A stretch of 20,413 nucleotides of DNA, from the IMG/VR virus record IMGVR_UViG_3300033148_004213, positions 1-20,413 of that record, one strand, 5' to 3'. Each line of letters opens with the position of its first letter. The first letter of the stretch is position 1. The notes under the pieces were generated by a model. The model made no database searches. It worked only from the letters and a program-made list of their open reading frames with translations, and was not told where the DNA came from. The translations under genes were made by a program, and so were the position numbers. Shown here in pieces: positions 7,304 to 12,829 of the stretch. The stretch is from a virus.

Positions 7304-8158
7304 ATGGCCGATGCAAACATTGGGATCACAGAGGTAACCGCAGCTAGTGAAGCTCGGATTGCTCAGTTGGTTCAATCATTTCTCATTCAAGAATCAGTCT
7401 TACTTGGAAAAGTAACCGACTATTCTTTTCTCGCTGCCCCCGGAGCGAAATCTGTTTCTCTTCCTAAGTCACCCGGCTTTAATGCTGTGTTAGACAAGGG
7501 CGAGAATACAAGTGCTGTACTTGATGACACTAACCTTTTTAGTGTTGATACTATTGCTTTAAATAAGCATAAGTATATTCAGTGGTTGATCGAGGACTTT
7601 GCTGACACACAAGCAAAAGTTAACGTAGTTCAGAATCATCTTATGCAAGCTGCTAAGCAATTAGCGCTTCAGATTGATAAAGATCTTATCGTTGAGCTTA
7701 AACTTGCTAGTGCTTCAACTCCAGACATGTTGATTAAGTATATCGATACGGCAACAAATGTAATCGCTAGGGGAGATATCCTTGCGGCACGAGCTCTACT
7801 TGTTAATCAGCATATCAATCCTAGAGAGTGCAACATTTGCATCTCTCCAGCGAAAGAAGCTGAAATGCTAAATATCAGCGACTTTATTGATGCTAGTAAA
7901 TTTGGTTCTAACGAGCCTATTTCTAACGGTGTGATTGGAAAAGTTTATGGAATGCCAGTAATGATTCACTCTGAACTTACTGCCGATGAAACTCTCGTTT
8001 GGCATCCAAGTGCATGTGGTTTCGCATCTCAGATAGCTCCTAGAGTTAAGTCTGAATACGACCTTAAGGAACTTGGAACTCGTTACTCTATTGATACTGT
8101 TTATGGAATGGAAGTTCTTGACAGCGGTAAGAGAAATGTTGAAATCTCTGAGACCTAA
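7304..8158 (+). CDS. Major capsid protein, HK97-fold
   Basis: The 284-residue protein directly follows the scaffold, with AGGAG at 7293-7297 before ATG 7304. The sequence opens with a short helical arm (ASEARIAQLVQSFLIQESVL) and then TDYSFLAAPGAKSVSLP. A long helix (spine-like: KVNVVQNHLMQAAKQLALQI, ending near KDLIVELK) follows, then ARALLVNQHINPRECNICISP and GKVYGMPVMIHSEL. The C-terminal part is SEYDLKELGTRYSIDTVYGMEVL. This order (arm, E-loop, spine helix, A-domain ending in a G-ME motif) is that of HK97-fold coat proteins. It lacks the long N-terminal delta region that is cleaved in HK97 and instead has a separate scaffold gene. It forms the icosahedral shell. A stable hairpin lies just after its stop. 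Confidence 0.87.
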   Translation: MADANIGITEVTAASEARIAQLVQSFLIQESVLLGKVTDYSFLAAPGAKSVSLPKSPGFNAVLDKGENTSAVLDDTNLFSVDTIALNKHKYIQWLIEDFADTQAKVNVVQNHLMQAAKQLALQIDKDLIVELKLASASTPDMLIKYIDTATNVIARGDILAARALLVNQHINPRECNICISPAKEAEMLNISDFIDASKFGSNEPISNGVIGKVYGMPVMIHSELTADETLVWHPSACGFASQIAPRVKSEYDLKELGTRYSIDTVYGMEVLDSGKRNVEISET

Positions 8159-8168
8159 TTTGATTAAT

Positions 8169-8190
8169 GAGGGGGAGGTAACTCCCTCTC
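8169..8190 (+). terminator. GNRA-loop hairpin after the capsid gene
   Basis: GAGGGGGAG (8169-8177) pairs with CTCCCTCTC (8182-8190) over nine positions, one of them a G-U pair, around a GTAA tetraloop of the very stable GNRA class. A short pyrimidine run (TCTTTACTT) follows, not a full T-tract. The likely role is a partial terminator or an mRNA 3'-end stabiliser that keeps capsid mRNA more abundant than the downstream message. Confidence 0.6.
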
Positions 8191-8208: not shown

Positions 8209-8400
8209 ATGCATATTAATGAAGTAAAGTTATATCTTGAAGCAAGCAGTAAGGAAGAACTTATTAAAAAGCAGATTGATAACAATAGATTTCATGGAAT
8301 GGGATTCCAGTATGACTCTCCAATTAAAGATGGCAAGAAATGGGTGATATGGTTCGTTGCAAATATAGCTGAGTATTTCAAGAAGGAGCAAAATAGATGA
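8209..8400 (+). CDS. Small conserved-looking phage protein, unknown function
   Basis: The 63-residue protein starts at ATG 8209 with a modest ribosome site (GGAAAG, 8200-8205). It has a helical first half (ASSKEELIKKQI) and a strand-rich middle with aromatic residues (GMGFQYDSPI, KKWVIWFVANI), ending with a charged tail. No signal peptide or clear membrane span is seen. It is the first gene after the hairpin and its stop overlaps the next start as ATGA. It is probably a small virion or assembly protein by position; no family is recognised. Confidence 0.6.
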   Translation: MHINEVKLYLEASSKEELIKKQIDNNRFHGMGFQYDSPIKDGKKWVIWFVANIAEYFKKEQNR

Positions 8401-8801
8401 CCCTTCCCGGAAATATTAGAGACAGAGAATTAAAAAAGTTTGTTGAAGATTCTAATGGTGATACCGCTGTTAGGACTTTGTCAGAAATACTTGGGTCAGT
8501 TACGGGATCGTTCTCACCATCGGGTCTAAAAACAGCAATTAAGATAACTAATTTAACTGCCAATACGGCAGCAGCGGCACTTCCTTTGACTCCATTAACA
8601 GATAGAAACTCAATTATAATACTAAACAGAAGCACTACTGATTCTCTATTTATTGGCAACTCAGATGTAACATCAAGTGGTGCTCTTGAGGGTTGGGAGG
8701 TAGAAGCGGGTAGTTTTTTTACAGTAGATATCACCGACGCTATAGTTATTTATGGAATAAGCACAGCGACTATTAACCTCAAAATAATGGAATTAGCGTA
8801 A
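8397..8801 (+). CDS. Beta-rich virion surface protein with C-terminal sandwich domain
   Basis: The 134-residue protein starts in an ATGA overlap with the previous gene. The first 45 residues are polar and partly helical, and may anchor it to the capsid (LPGNIRDRELKKFVEDSNGD). The rest is a beta domain: IKITNLTANTAAAALPLTPL, then DRNSIIILNRSTTDSLFIG, DVTSSGALEGWEVEAGSFF and a final IYGISTATINLKIMELA. The same arrangement (LP-x-x-PL, R-x-x-I-x-I-x-N, G-x-x-x-VTSS, G-S, AT-N-I-x-I-x-E) is seen at the end of the gene at 9131, and more weakly in the gene at 8801. Such domains are common in phage decoration, head-fibre and tail-fibre proteins. Exact location on the particle is unknown. Confidence 0.68.
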   Translation: MTLPGNIRDRELKKFVEDSNGDTAVRTLSEILGSVTGSFSPSGLKTAIKITNLTANTAAAALPLTPLTDRNSIIILNRSTTDSLFIGNSDVTSSGALEGWEVEAGSFFTVDITDAIVIYGISTATINLKIMELA

Positions 8802-9118
8802 TGCCTGTATCATCCCCAGTCTTTAAACCAGTTATAAGTACGGGCGCTACTTCAAAGCTTATAACAAATTTGTCATTACCAACTATTAATACAGAAGTAT
8901 CTCACTCGCTGCAGGATGGATTAAGGGCGATAATGATTAGATCGAGAGTACTCGCTAAGATACAAGTTGGTTTTGTAGCAACAGAGTCAGGTACTAACTA
9001 TGTAACTGTAAACGCTGGTACAGTATTTTATTTAAATGAAATAGAATTTGAAAGCTCTACTATCTTTCTACAATCTGATACAATAACGACTGTAGAAATA
9101 TTAGAACTATACACCTAG
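8801..9118 (+). CDS. Small beta-sandwich virion protein, paralogue of neighbours
   Basis: The 105-residue protein overlaps the previous stop by one base (TAATG). It is almost wholly made of strand-like segments: SKLITNLSLP, LRAIMIRSRVLAKIQVGFVA, NYVTVNAGTVFYLNEI and TITTVEILELYT. It appears to be a bare copy of the C-terminal domain of the proteins on either side, with the LP turn, the I-x-I-R/N strand, a G in the following turn, an A-G-T/S turn, and a final V-x-I-x-E-x-Y/A. It lacks any N-terminal anchor. It is likely a small capsid or tail decoration protein, inferred from composition and context. Confidence 0.64.
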   Translation: MPVSSPVFKPVISTGATSKLITNLSLPTINTEVSHSLQDGLRAIMIRSRVLAKIQVGFVATESGTNYVTVNAGTVFYLNEIEFESSTIFLQSDTITTVEILELYT

Positions 9119-9130
9119 GGAGGGGTAATA

Positions 9131-9766
9131 ATGATTACACTAGATACAATTCTTTCGGATCTTCACTCAATAGAAATCAAAGATGCTTCAGGACAAGCTC
9201 TTGCAATCGATGGATCAGGTTATTTAACAGCAAACATTAATGGATCGGTAACTGTCTCTGCGTCTGATTTAGACATAAGAGATTTAACAAGTGTCAGTGA
9301 CTCCGTTGCAGCAGTACAATCAGGCGCATGGACAGTTGCGGCTACACAATCAGGGACATGGAACATTGGTACGGTAGCTTCAATTACAGCTGATGTAACA
9401 GTTACCGCATCTGATTTAGATATCCGTGATTTAGCATTTGCAAGTGATTCGGTTACCGCTCATCAGGGTGGTTCTTGGTCAATGACTATTGATAATATTA
9501 GTTCTTGGAAGAATACAGCTTCATCAGTGACAAATACTGCTGCTGAAATAGTCGCAACTCCATTAGCGAATAGAGTTAAAATGTTAATTCAAAACCTTGG
9601 GGCTAACGATGTATACGCAGGACCGGATAATGCAGTGACAAGTTCAAATGGAATGAAGATTCCTAAAGGTTCTTCAATGGAAATGAATTTTGATACTGGG
9701 TCAGACATATGGTTGATAACTTCGGCAGGTACCGCAAATATAAGGGTAAGTGAGTATGCAGCTTAA
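9131..9766 (+). CDS. Repeat-containing virion protein with C-terminal beta domain
   Basis: The 211-residue protein follows a GGGAGGGG ribosome site. Residues 1-38 form a lead-in with DGSGYLTANINGS. A 28-residue unit then occurs twice, at residues 40-67 and 89-116, with 20 identical positions; its core is ASDLDIRDL...SDSV ending in a G-x-W. Between them lie short AAVQSGAWTV and AATQSGTWNIGTV turns. The C-terminal domain (about 130-211) carries LANRVKMLIQNLGANDVYAG, AVTSS, KGSSMEMNF and TANIRVSEYAA, matching the gene at 8397. Phage structural proteins often carry the SDLDIRDL / QSGTWNI style of repeat in elongated shafts. A short fibre or decoration protein exposed on the virion is therefore the best guess. 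Confidence 0.7.
   Translation: MITLDTILSDLHSIEIKDASGQALAIDGSGYLTANINGSVTVSASDLDIRDLTSVSDSVAAVQSGAWTVAATQSGTWNIGTVASITADVTVTASDLDIRDLAFASDSVTAHQGGSWSMTIDNISSWKNTASSVTNTAAEIVATPLANRVKMLIQNLGANDVYAGPDNAVTSSNGMKIPKGSSMEMNFDTGSDIWLITSAGTANIRVSEYAA
9248..9478 (+). repeat. Two-copy internal repeat in the shaft-like protein
   Basis: Bases 9248-9331 and 9395-9478 encode the two 28-residue repeat units of the protein at 9131, 147 bases apart in register. Twenty of 28 encoded residues agree while many third positions differ, so the copies are conserved at protein level and are not a recent duplication. Confidence 0.8.
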
Positions 9767-9956
9767 TAGCGAAGATTTAAAAATGCATAAGGCATTTAAA
9801 AACCTTATGAACTCAGCTAAGTTTGAAGTAAAAGGAGATGCCGTCTTTATGATGGCGTCTCTTTACTCTTGGTTTGATAGTATTGGTGTTAGGATGGAAG
9901 AGCATTTTGAACCACCTAAAGAGAAAAAAGAAAAAATAAAGAAGGTTGGAAAATGA
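9756..9956 (+). CDS. Small helical protein with a lysine-rich tail
   Basis: The 66-residue protein starts at ATG 9756 with AAGGG at 9742-9746 nine bases upstream; a GTG two codons earlier is too close to that site. It overlaps the previous gene by 11 bases. The first 45 residues look helical (LNSEDLKMHKAFKNLMNSAK, VFMMASLYSWFDSIGVRMEE). The last 20 are lysine-rich (PPKEKKEKIKKVGK) and probably disordered. No family is recognised. A basic tail could touch DNA or an acidic capsid surface. The ATGA junction with the next gene suggests coupled synthesis of the two. Confidence 0.58.
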   Translation: MQLNSEDLKMHKAFKNLMNSAKFEVKGDAVFMMASLYSWFDSIGVRMEEHFEPPKEKKEKIKKVGK

Positions 9957-10171
9957 CATTCAGTGATCTAAGCCCAGAGAATACTATTACTGATGATGAT
10001 GGCAATGTCATTGGGATTAAAGACAGCCCTGTTCATACAACAGCAGAATGGGGCGCTCTAGCAGAAGCATTTAGTTCTCAATTAGATGAAATACTAAAAC
10101 AGTTAAGATATATCAATATACATTTATCGCATCTATCAGATCAAGAGCTAGATGAGGGAGATTTTGAATGA
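9953..10171 (+). CDS. Small acidic coiled-coil virion-associated protein
   Basis: The 72-residue protein overlaps the previous stop as ATGA. The N-terminus has TITDDDGNVIGIKDSPVHTT, a D-G-N turn common in phage structural proteins. A probable coiled coil follows (FSSQLDEILKQLRYINIHL) and an acidic ending (LSDQELDEGDFE). Helix-plus-acidic-tail proteins of this size occur in many phages next to decoration and fibre proteins, where they may help oligomerise them. This is by resemblance only. It pairs with the basic-tailed protein before it, so the two may bind each other through opposite charges. Confidence 0.6.
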   Translation: MTFSDLSPENTITDDDGNVIGIKDSPVHTTAEWGALAEAFSSQLDEILKQLRYINIHLSHLSDQELDEGDFE

Positions 10172-10749
10172 GTGGAACAATAATTAGAGATGGAACAGGT
10201 AAAGGGTATTCATTGCAGATTGATGACCATGGCCGCGCTTATGTGAATTCTACCAGTATTTCACATTTTTCCCATCATAGCAGTTATCATAAGGATGCGT
10301 TTATATCTTGCGCTTCATGTCATCTAAATTCCACTAGTAAAGAAGCAGTAATGTTTTTCAAGAATAGCTCATCGGATAAAGATATTGAGCTGTATTGGGC
10401 ATACATATCAGGTAATGCCAATCTAGAGTGGTATGCATACTTTGGAAGTGAGTATACCTCAGGAGGTACATTGCTAGAAGCTGCAAATTTAAATGTTGGT
10501 GAAGCTGTCCCAGATTACTTTACGATTTATGAAGGGTTAAAAGCAGATGTACTTACGTTAGATACGACTAATGAAAAAAGAGTTCAGGAGATATTTGCAG
10601 GAGCTTTTTCTGGAATGTATATGCCATTAGAGGGTGCTGTTATAGTCCCTCCCGGTAAAACAATGAGTATGTATGCCAAGGGTGCGGTAGATACAGAAGC
10701 AATCTTTACGCTTGGATTTGCAACACACGATGCTGGAACTAAATTATAA
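10168..10749 (+). CDS. Virion structural protein, family B, with CxxCH and His cluster
   Basis: The 193-residue protein starts in an ATGA overlap. It begins with the family tag IIRDGTGKGYSLQIDDHGRA then YVNS, which recurs in the next two genes. Then comes a histidine-rich stretch (H33, H36, H37, H41) leading directly into C48-A-S-C51-H52. The remainder is beta-rich: AVMFFKNSSSDKDIELYWAY, YTSGGTLLE and AVIVPPGKTMSMYAKGAV, ending LGFATHD. The next gene has matching FKN/LKN, YTSGGT, and G-x-VI-x-x-x-G-x-x-x-x-x-x-KG blocks, so they are paralogues. CxxCH is the heme c signature, but without a signal peptide and in a cytoplasmically assembled virion protein a metal site or disulphide is more likely. 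It is probably a virion-surface protein. Confidence 0.68.
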   Translation: MSGTIIRDGTGKGYSLQIDDHGRAYVNSTSISHFSHHSSYHKDAFISCASCHLNSTSKEAVMFFKNSSSDKDIELYWAYISGNANLEWYAYFGSEYTSGGTLLEAANLNVGEAVPDYFTIYEGLKADVLTLDTTNEKRVQEIFAGAFSGMYMPLEGAVIVPPGKTMSMYAKGAVDTEAIFTLGFATHDAGTKL

Positions 10750-10759
10750 GGGGTAAGAG

Positions 10760-11332
10760 ATGAGAATAGAAGATGGTAAGGGAAGAGGTAATTATGCTGA
10801 AGTTTCTAACAGTAAAAGGTTGGCGGTCAATTCTGTTAATTTCTCCCCACAGCATTACGCTGCTCATGAGGGTGGTTTAGCATACCAGCTAATAGTTCCG
10901 TCCTTGGATATAACAACTTCTGAACAAGGGGTAATTTATTTAAAAAATACTTCTGATCAGGCAATTGTTATTACCTATATTAGGGTGCAAAGTGCCGGGG
11001 CAGCAGACACAAGTGAGGACGCATATTTTAGAGTGCTAAGAAATCCGACTTATACCAGCGGTGGAACAGCTACAGATCCAATGAATACTTTATTCTCTAG
11101 TTCCAAGGACGCTATAGCAGATGCATATATTGGTGATGGGACAGCTCTTGTATTGGGAAATACAACTGAAGAGATAGATAGAAATTATCAAGCTAACTCA
11201 ATGCAGTCATATAGCAAAGAGGGATCAGTAATACTTGAGACTGGTAACTCTATTGCGATTATGCACAAAGGCAGTACAACTGCTGGAGTAGTGACAGCAA
11301 GACTTAGTTTTTATTTTGCTGAACATGATTAA
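10760..11332 (+). CDS. Virion structural protein, family B paralogue
   Basis: The 190-residue protein starts at ATG 10760 after AAGGGG. The N-terminal tag is RIEDGKGRGNYAEVSNSKRL then AVNS, followed by SPQHYAAHEGGLAYQL. The beta-rich body (GVIYLKNTSDQAIVITYIRV, NPTYTSGGTATDP, GSVILETGNSIAIMHKGST, LSFYFAEHD) aligns along its length with the gene before it, but the Cys pair and most histidines are absent. Proteins with this tag are widespread in tailed phages as uncharacterised virion proteins between capsid and tail genes. Function is likely decoration or a short fibre; no enzymatic motif is visible. Confidence 0.7.
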   Translation: MRIEDGKGRGNYAEVSNSKRLAVNSVNFSPQHYAAHEGGLAYQLIVPSLDITTSEQGVIYLKNTSDQAIVITYIRVQSAGAADTSEDAYFRVLRNPTYTSGGTATDPMNTLFSSSKDAIADAYIGDGTALVLGNTTEEIDRNYQANSMQSYSKEGSVILETGNSIAIMHKGSTTAGVVTARLSFYFAEHD

Positions 11333-11343
11333 CAGGATTTAAC

Positions 11344-11964
11344 ATGAGTAAAGCAGCATTTGGAATAGAGGATGGAGTAGGTACTAAAACAAGAGTACGT
11401 ATAACAGACAAACACGCAATGCTTGTTAGTAATGTCCCTCCTCCAATTCCTCCACATAATACACCAAATGATTATAGATTATATTCAGAAAATCTAGACG
11501 GGATGGACGTTGACGGATCTTCAACACCACAAGAATTTTCCATAGTATCATCTCAGGAATATGACATTCACGTTATGCAGTTAATAGTGACCATATCTGA
11601 TACTCAAGTTAGCTTGTCTAAGTTTGGTGGGATAGGTGCATTGGATAACGGCATAGATATATTATTCCATGAATCAGGTGTTGACACTTATTTAATCAAG
11701 GGAGCAAGAACTACAGGTATGGTTGTTCAGCAATCAGGTATGTTTGATCCTTATGGTAGTGCATCTTCAACTTATCAAATTAGTAGTTTTATTGGTAACT
11801 CCGATGCTGCTTTAATTCGTATGGCAGCAAGTGAGTTAGTGCCCGGTGGTTTTAGACTAGGTCGTGCAAGCAATGATAATATTAAAGTAATTGTAAACGA
11901 CGACATAACAAATCTGGATGCCTTTGAAGTTAGATTTCTAGGTTATAAACATTTTGAGGTATAA
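11344..11964 (+). CDS. Virion structural protein sharing only the family-B N-terminal tag
   Basis: The 206-residue protein starts at ATG 11344, preceded by AGGA in the short gap. The N-terminus FGIEDGVGTKTRVRITDKHA then MLVSN corresponds to the IxDGxG tag of the two previous proteins. A proline-rich linker (PPPIPPHNTPND) follows. The body differs: YDIHVMQLIVTISDTQVSLS, NGIDILFHESGVDTYLIKG, NSDAALIRMAASE and AFEVRFLGYKHFEV, all strand-like. A shared tag with a swapped body suggests the tag docks to a common partner on the virion while the outer domain varies. No known receptor-binding motif was recognised. Confidence 0.68.
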   Translation: MSKAAFGIEDGVGTKTRVRITDKHAMLVSNVPPPIPPHNTPNDYRLYSENLDGMDVDGSSTPQEFSIVSSQEYDIHVMQLIVTISDTQVSLSKFGGIGALDNGIDILFHESGVDTYLIKGARTTGMVVQQSGMFDPYGSASSTYQISSFIGNSDAALIRMAASELVPGGFRLGRASNDNIKVIVNDDITNLDAFEVRFLGYKHFEV

Positions 11965-12324
11965 ATGGATATAGTACATAGTGCAGGAGGTTTTAAGTTT
12001 AGGGGAGCTAGAATTGTATCCGGAACTGTCCCTGCAGGGGGAACTGTACCTTTCGATTTTACATTAACAGAGGACAGATTTTTTACGGGTGTTGCTATCA
12101 AGGCATACAACTCAGGTCATTTTGATTATGGAAAACTTCAAGTAATGTATGGAGATACTGTATTAGATGAGTTTGTGTTAAGTTGGGGTATATCAGATGA
12201 ATTGCAGATTCTTGAGATCTATAGGGCACATTTACCAGCAGGATTAAAAATAAGAATAACGTATTATAGTACTGGCACAGAAGATGTAGACTTCTGGGTT
12301 AATGCTTTTTTACACGAGAAATAA
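11965..12324 (+). CDS. Small beta-sandwich virion protein
   Basis: The 119-residue protein starts at once after the previous stop, with a GAGG-type site inside the upstream gene. After a short lead (HSAGGFKFRGARIVSG), the rest looks like one beta-sandwich: GGTVPFDFTLTEDRFFTGVA, then GKLQVMYGDTVLDEFVLSWG, LPAGLKIRITYYST and VDFWVNAFLHEK. The layout recalls small jelly-roll domains of phage surface proteins, but no clear family match is made. It closes the island of ten structural genes between the capsid and the hydrolase. Confidence 0.63.
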   Translation: MDIVHSAGGFKFRGARIVSGTVPAGGTVPFDFTLTEDRFFTGVAIKAYNSGHFDYGKLQVMYGDTVLDEFVLSWGISDELQILEIYRAHLPAGLKIRITYYSTGTEDVDFWVNAFLHEK

Positions 12325-12325
12325 A

Positions 12326-12829
12326 ATGATCAAAGCACTGTTTCTTAAATCAGACAAAATCGGCGCACGCCTAATTAGCTTTGGGACGAAAAGAGATGGA
12401 CAAACAGCAGAGGACACTCCTAGCCATGTGGCTTTTTTATTTTTTGATACCATTATTATTGATTCTACTCTGTCAAACGGAGTGAGAGAGGTATCACTTG
12501 GCTACATTAAAGATCATTATAGAATAATTAATTGCATTGAACTACCTGTCAGTGAGGAAGAGACATATAGATATTTAGAGAAAGCTAGAGGAGAGATACT
12601 TGGGGCCCGTTACGATTGGGCGGCAATTGCTTACTTCTCATGGAGAGTATTACTCAACAAAATTGGTATACCATTCCCTAAAAAGAATAAGCTTAATTTT
12701 AAAAACAAATATTTCTGCACAGAAGTTTACAGCATTATTACAGGCGAGAGATACGGCATCGTAAGCCCTAACGACCTACTGTTGAAAATGATAGAGAAAA
12801 AATATATAATAATTGGAAAGGAAGTTTAA
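12326..12829 (+). CDS. Permuted NlpC/P60-like cysteine hydrolase
   Basis: The 167-residue protein has a papain-like order reversed by circular permutation: the conserved histidine first (TPSHVAFLF, H34), a following acidic strand (TIIIDSTL), and the nucleophile late (KYFCTEVYSIITG, C131). That order is found in permuted NlpC/P60 (YiiX/LRAT-like) families, which hydrolyse amide or acyl bonds in peptidoglycan peptides or lipids. The segment GARYDWAAIAYFSWRVLL between them is also typical. ATG 12326 lies just after the previous stop; an upstream ATG at 12302 would only add residues overlapping the previous gene. No signal peptide is present. Placed between surface proteins and the head-tail adaptor, it may be a virion-borne wall hydrolase or process an assembly partner. 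Confidence 0.72.
   Translation: MIKALFLKSDKIGARLISFGTKRDGQTAEDTPSHVAFLFFDTIIIDSTLSNGVREVSLGYIKDHYRIINCIELPVSEEETYRYLEKARGEILGARYDWAAIAYFSWRVLLNKIGIPFPKKNKLNFKNKYFCTEVYSIITGERYGIVSPNDLLLKMIEKKYIIIGKEV

Follow-up and report, generated by a model that had tools for sequence, protein, structure and literature searches.

The stretch of DNA analyzed here (the window) spans an entire IMG/VR virus record, is 20,413 bases long and is probably a fragment. It carries, on the plus strand, a siphophage late region with genes for the terminase, an SPP1-type portal, a scaffold candidate and the major capsid protein, then an island of small genes and a hydrolase candidate, downstream of which are genes resembling connector and tail genes. 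ORF analysis agreed with the first-pass annotation of this DNA that ten small genes (g01 to g10) fill the interval between the capsid gene and the hydrolase candidate. All ten are on the plus strand and tightly packed, with overlaps or gaps of a few bases between them (Table 1). The start of g05 is more likely the ATG at 9756 than the GTG at 9750.

Table 1. Positions of the island genes and of the features at their 5' border, with the evidence for each.
Feature	Position	Strand	Description	Evidence
Major capsid protein gene	7304..8158	+	Major head protein	phrog_267, E 1.6e-25
Terminator-like hairpin	8169..8190	+	Between capsid gene and island	Pattern scan, consensus match only
g01	8209..8400	+	63 aa; first gene after capsid gene	Relatives likewise placed in L005, L008
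g02	8397..8801	+	134 aa; C-terminal F1 beta domain	Kin of g04 C-terminus
g03	8801..9118	+	105 aa; predicted jelly roll, strand order as F1	Predicted fold, orthologues
g04	9131..9766	+	211 aa; repeat stalk and C-terminal F1 domain	phrog_30212, E 8.6e-6; model; repeat 9305-9362
g05	9756..9956	+	About 66 aa; partner of g02-g04 set	Position of relatives
g06	9953..10171	+	72 aa; C-terminal helix motif, proposed adaptor	Motif profile, E 2.6e-4
g07	10168..10749	+	193 aa; F2: IxDGxG tag and predicted jelly-roll body	E 3e-8 to g08; family alignment; homologue model
g08	10760..11332	+	190 aa; F2: tag and predicted jelly-roll body	Full-length relatives in L002-L004 and many others
g09	11344..11964	+	206 aa; F3: tag and different, predicted jelly-roll-like body	Family alignment; tag common with F2
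g10	11965..12324	+	119 aa; last gene in island	Family 3' of F3 in L098, L104; same place in L008

The window had no DNA match among the 50,697 phage records searched, and no RNA families were found in it. The capsid protein, whose gene is the 5' neighbor of the island, has 26% identity with capsid proteins annotated in Streptomyces phages. The terminator-like hairpin directly 3' of this gene may lower expression of the island, judging by its sequence; annotated terminators are likewise placed in Pantoea phage LIMEzero and Klebsiella phage GP-1. On the other side of the island, the hydrolase candidate (12302-12829) appears by eye to be of the NlpC/P60 or YiiX type, based on an FCTEVYS stretch, and its PHROG match, phrog_1128, bears the unlikely label of enoyl-CoA hydratase. 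Near the start of the window, an ORF of 410 residues (1434-2666) seems by eye to join an N-terminal domain of ParB type to a DNA methyltransferase.

Sequence comparisons within the island revealed homology between g02 and g04 over approximately their last 80 residues (Smith-Waterman Z 8.2, p<5e-4), and the two C-termini also met in iterated HMM searches. We refer to this region as the F1 domain. The first-pass annotation had assigned the same beta domain to g03 as well; no sequence relation of g03 to g02 or g04 was found (Smith-Waterman Z -0.3 and -0.6; hhalign P 0.049), and g03 was dropped as a sequence homologue of the two. Structure prediction, one of the checks that had been proposed, gave a g03 model with the same eight strands as the g04 domain at a near-constant offset, and the strand strings of the two agreed at 86% of positions versus a permuted mean of 60% (p 5e-5). 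The shared beta domain therefore holds at the sequence level for g02 and g04, and for g03 at the level of the predicted fold only. Homology of F1 to the families of the second half of the island (F2 and F3, below) was without support and was rejected.

Orthologues of these genes were identified in other contigs, those of g02 in L005, L006 and L007 and those of g03 in the same three and in L086 and L121, while relatives of g05 lie directly 3' of g04 homologues in L006, L007 and L086. L006 keeps the order g02-g03-g04-g05 3' of its capsid gene (the L005 contig ends within g04). L007, whose contig encodes a T7-like portal, has the quartet 5' of the terminase gene with an F3 gene after it, and parts of the quartet occur in L086 and L121. 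Because the quartet recurs in this manner, it moves as a set between unlike phages, and we define g02-g03-g04-g05 as a portable cassette.

The second half of the island includes two further families, F2 (g07, g08) and F3 (g09). The F2 proteins g07 and g08 are homologous end to end (E 3e-8; Z 16). The body of g09, with the motifs VDGSxTP and LxNG, is different, and its N-terminus has the IxDGxG tag in common with that of g08 (Z 5.9). The alignment of the F2 profile with the F3 profile covers the N-terminal tag plus the first strands (hhalign probability 92%, E 5.5e-7) and does not extend further. These data bear out the earlier reading that g07, g08 and g09 carry a common N-terminal tag on bodies that are either related or replaced.

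The distribution of the tag differs with gene context. In F3 proteins encoded next to F2 the domain begins around residue 39, and a tag score was obtained for 13 of 29 (and none for the remaining 16), whereas F3 proteins encoded elsewhere have long N-terminal parts, with a domain start near residue 137, and the tag in 1 of 46. The Fisher p of 6e-6 for this difference is optimistic because related sequences are not independent. In F2, mean identity is 39% in the tag versus 22% in the body, a pattern that a docking element would be expected to show. F3 has the reverse, with lower identity in the tag region than in the body (23% versus 30%), and for this reason the case for docking draws mainly on F2.

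Scans of viral contigs with the single sequences of g02 and g09 found no relatives; a profile scan succeeded for g09. Profile scans added 67 loci for F3, for which 68 related loci were counted, and 28 for F2, and the F2-F3 pair was present in 40 other uncultured phage contigs. Loci have from one to four F2 copies, and F3 directly follows F2 in 39 of 48 loci, those cut by a contig end being left out, and in 18 of the 24 found via F2 alone. The gene at the position of g06 is variable in length, with approximately 35 conserved C-terminal residues. The conserved end of genes 5' of F2 is roughly LLxxILxELKxxNxHLxxxTDExIxxxDIE, and the corresponding motif of g06 itself is LxxILxxLxxIxxHLxxLxDxELxxxDxE. 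A profile of 20 such ends, built without the window, matched window g06 with an E of 2.6e-4. Among the 26,671 ORFs in the loci the profile had 36 matches, every one upstream of F2 genes: in 33 cases the matching ORF ends where the first F2 gene of the locus starts, and the other three are 5' of a different F2 copy (L126, L132) or separated by one gene (L110). Gene g06 is, then, a regular partner of F2, and the portable unit is a g06-type gene, one to four F2 copies and F3, an order that is present in the window as g06-g07-g08-g09. In L003 (1242-1871) and L004 (4813-5439), a collagen-like (Gly-X-Y) protein, possibly a fiber stalk, is encoded just 5' of this cassette.

The first-pass annotation had derived all ten genes from two paralogous families. 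Two families of paralogues were indeed found, F1 (g02, g04) and F2 (g07, g08); g06 belongs with the F2 set, however, and g10 represents a family separate from both sets. What had been missed was that g05 and g06 are constant partners and that the sets have spread between unlike phages. The assessment that the genes are poorly characterized was correct. None of the ten exceeded the cut-offs of Pfam, and PHROGs linked g02 (weakly) and g04 to functionally uncharacterized families. Matches to phrog_30212, phrog_25585 and phrog_22789 were obtained for the F1 domain in g04 and its relatives; these PHROGs carry no function and do not describe the quartet order. F3 has no PHROG family. No description of the gene set was found in the literature searched, and searches of 50,697 cultured-phage records with g04, g08 and three relatives produced no protein matches. 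When 84,980 species of bacteria and archaea were scanned with a pattern, one F3 contig was found, L137, from a Phycisphaerales MAG; it may be a phage contig that was placed in the bin of its host.

Among cultured phages, F2 has a distant relative in phrog_5335, the family of LIMEzero ORF57, which has relatives in 117 phage records. One of 32 F2 members matched it (L123, E 6e-6), and a TGGT..P.N.N stretch is common to both families. The PHROGs search gave no match of g07 or g08 to phrog_5335, and we treat the window proteins as outside that family. The F2-LIMEzero link runs via phrog_5335 only, since ORF57 was not significant against the F2 profile by hhalign. In Klebsiella phages, phrog_5335 is likewise found a few genes 3' of the capsid gene. 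It differs in being the C-terminal part of a longer protein (annotated as hypothetical, or as a tail fiber in one record), and a g06 or F3 partner is not annotated in the Klebsiella phage regions examined. No functional study of phrog_5335 relatives was found in the literature searched.

Structural models were obtained by folding g03 with g04 of the window, and F2 with F3 of the homologous locus L053, as joint chains in which one stop codon was read as Gln; this served the folding alone and implies no readthrough. In the L053 model, which represents homologues of the window proteins, pLDDT reached 97 in the F2 body and was mostly 80-90 in the F3 body, whereas confidence in the tag was low. Fold matches of the F2 body were to trimer-forming jelly rolls, including the knob of the 7-7-1 long tail fiber (9rkv, Z 8.0), Pgp3, C1q and exosporium proteins, with Z 6-8 to several members. 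For a monomer model of a homologue, Z 6-8 to TNF/C1q-like trimeric jelly rolls is near the level of common arrangements. The F3 body aligned to a jelly roll of the PRD1 coat protein. Because Z values of 7-8 lie close to those that common arrangements reach, these F2 and F3 matches give a fold class only. For the g04 domain the match was to the receptor-binding domain of spike P1 of PM2 (Z 9.3), and for g03 to a particle protein of SH1 and HCIV-1 (Z 8.6-8.8); both aligned to small jelly rolls that include viral surface proteins (PM2 spike P1, SH1/HCIV-1, the STIV turret), although matches of Z 7-9 may reflect a common arrangement only. No convincing sequence relatives were found in the PDB. Together, the models predict that the bodies of both cassettes are jelly rolls, a fold that viral knobs and fibers also employ.

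In a tree of 70 F2 domains, copies from one phage were almost never nearest neighbors; first copies often clustered with first copies and last with last. Window g07, for example, grouped with copy 1 of L043, and copy 1 of L116, L118 and L120 grouped together. This pattern does not support a recent local duplication of g07 and g08, and indicates that the duplication is old and that what moves is the set, as a cassette. The duplication and swapping envisaged in the first-pass annotation were thus upheld in so far as there are paralogues and one tag on different bodies, and not as a recent local event.

Islands next to the capsid gene occur in the window and in L005, L006, L008, L086, L104 and L107. 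The closest capsid relative, L008 (1e-81), nonetheless has a largely different island, in which g01, one F1 domain and g10 are kept with other proteins between, and the island of L104 contains F3 and g10. The capsid-connector interval is therefore a slot that holds different sets in related phages. In L008 (2912-3540) and L017 (6575-7242) a similar-looking beta protein is followed by a coiled-coil gene, as judged by eye, perhaps a third exchangeable set.

These gene positions bear on where in the particle the proteins might be located. In some short-tailed relatives the F2-F3 cassette is 3' of a tail-hub-like gene (L002) or beside terminase and portal genes (L007, L113, L127), and this variation makes a tail site possible. 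If the set formed a fiber complex of the tail or neck, as its place after the tail-hub-like gene in L002 and relatives would suggest, its adjacency to the capsid gene would be incidental. The 7-7-1 knob among the best F2 fold matches and the tail fiber label of one F2-related Klebsiella protein are consistent with such a complex. In the window, however, the set precedes the connector and tail genes, a separate collar-type fiber gene ends the tail block (19473), and several relatives have the set next to the capsid gene. We consider a tail or neck complex unlikely, and the capsid the most likely site for the proteins of the window, as judged from gene order.

Based on these findings, we propose, with a probability of roughly 0.55, that the island is a variable slot holding two portable cassettes of surface attachment or decoration proteins that are docked by conserved motifs. 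The first cassette (g02 to g05) would provide small jelly-roll domains, that of g04 on a repeat stalk, and the second (g06 to g09) a helical adaptor, g06, with three jelly-roll display proteins that have the IxDGxG hairpin tag in common. The conserved tag would combine with the conserved helix of g06 to dock the proteins on the particle, and the bodies, which diverge rapidly, would face outward, probably as trimers, where they may bind cell-surface or environmental ligands. Bodies would be exchangeable because the tag stays constant.

The same jelly rolls could instead act as capsid cement, sitting between capsomers and strengthening the shell, with ligand binding not their task. The position of the island directly 3' of the capsid gene and the small, single-domain g02 and g03 fit this role, and many known decoration proteins stabilize capsids (PMC7602432). 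Cement would be harder to reconcile with F2 bodies that diverge while the tag is kept, or with the largely different island of L008, and the g04 stalk and the long N-terminal parts of other F3 proteins suggest outward display. On balance we regard cement as improbable. Far less probable still is that the products are not part of the virion and act in assembly or leave with the lysed cell, given the predicted jelly-roll folds, conserved tags, repeat stalk and location within the structural block.

Docked attachment or decoration proteins remain our preferred interpretation, and a broader version of it is more speculative. We suggest only tentatively, with the odds against it, that environmental phages have a plug-in display system in which a helix-plus-tag dock carries jelly-roll adhesins that are exchanged between long- and short-tailed phages, independently of the tail receptor-binding proteins. 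The families of the island are frequent in uncultured phages, and cultured-phage records contain almost none of them; should they prove to be exchangeable adhesins of the surface, they would offer a handle on how uncultured phages attach. Overall, our best guess, held with moderate confidence, is that the island encodes surface-type jelly-roll proteins in two exchangeable sets, of which one has a docking tag and a helical partner, and that they have a role in attachment.

Among known systems, T5 pb10 is a decoration protein with a conserved anchor that contrasts in conservation with the rest of the protein (PMC5292684). Both pb10 and T4 Hoc would resemble the island proteins, as interpreted here, in having a display domain on a conserved anchor, at the capsid surface and with a proposed role in adhesion (PMC5292684, PMC7602432). 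They differ in being single proteins with Ig-like domains, whereas the island encodes several predicted jelly-roll proteins that share a tag and an adaptor gene. The folds known for decoration proteins include the beta-tulip, beta-tadpole, OB, Ig-like and knotted helical folds, a list that may not be exhaustive; the best matches found here were jelly rolls. The 7-7-1 long tail fiber knob (9rkv; PMC12796354), Chlamydia Pgp3 and C1q share the fold class predicted for F2 bodies, with matches of Z 6-8; they belong to different settings, no sequence relation to F2 was found, and the fold class is silent on function. With decoration and head fiber genes the island shares a place beside the capsid gene, directly 3' of it in the window and capsid-adjacent in the six contigs named above.
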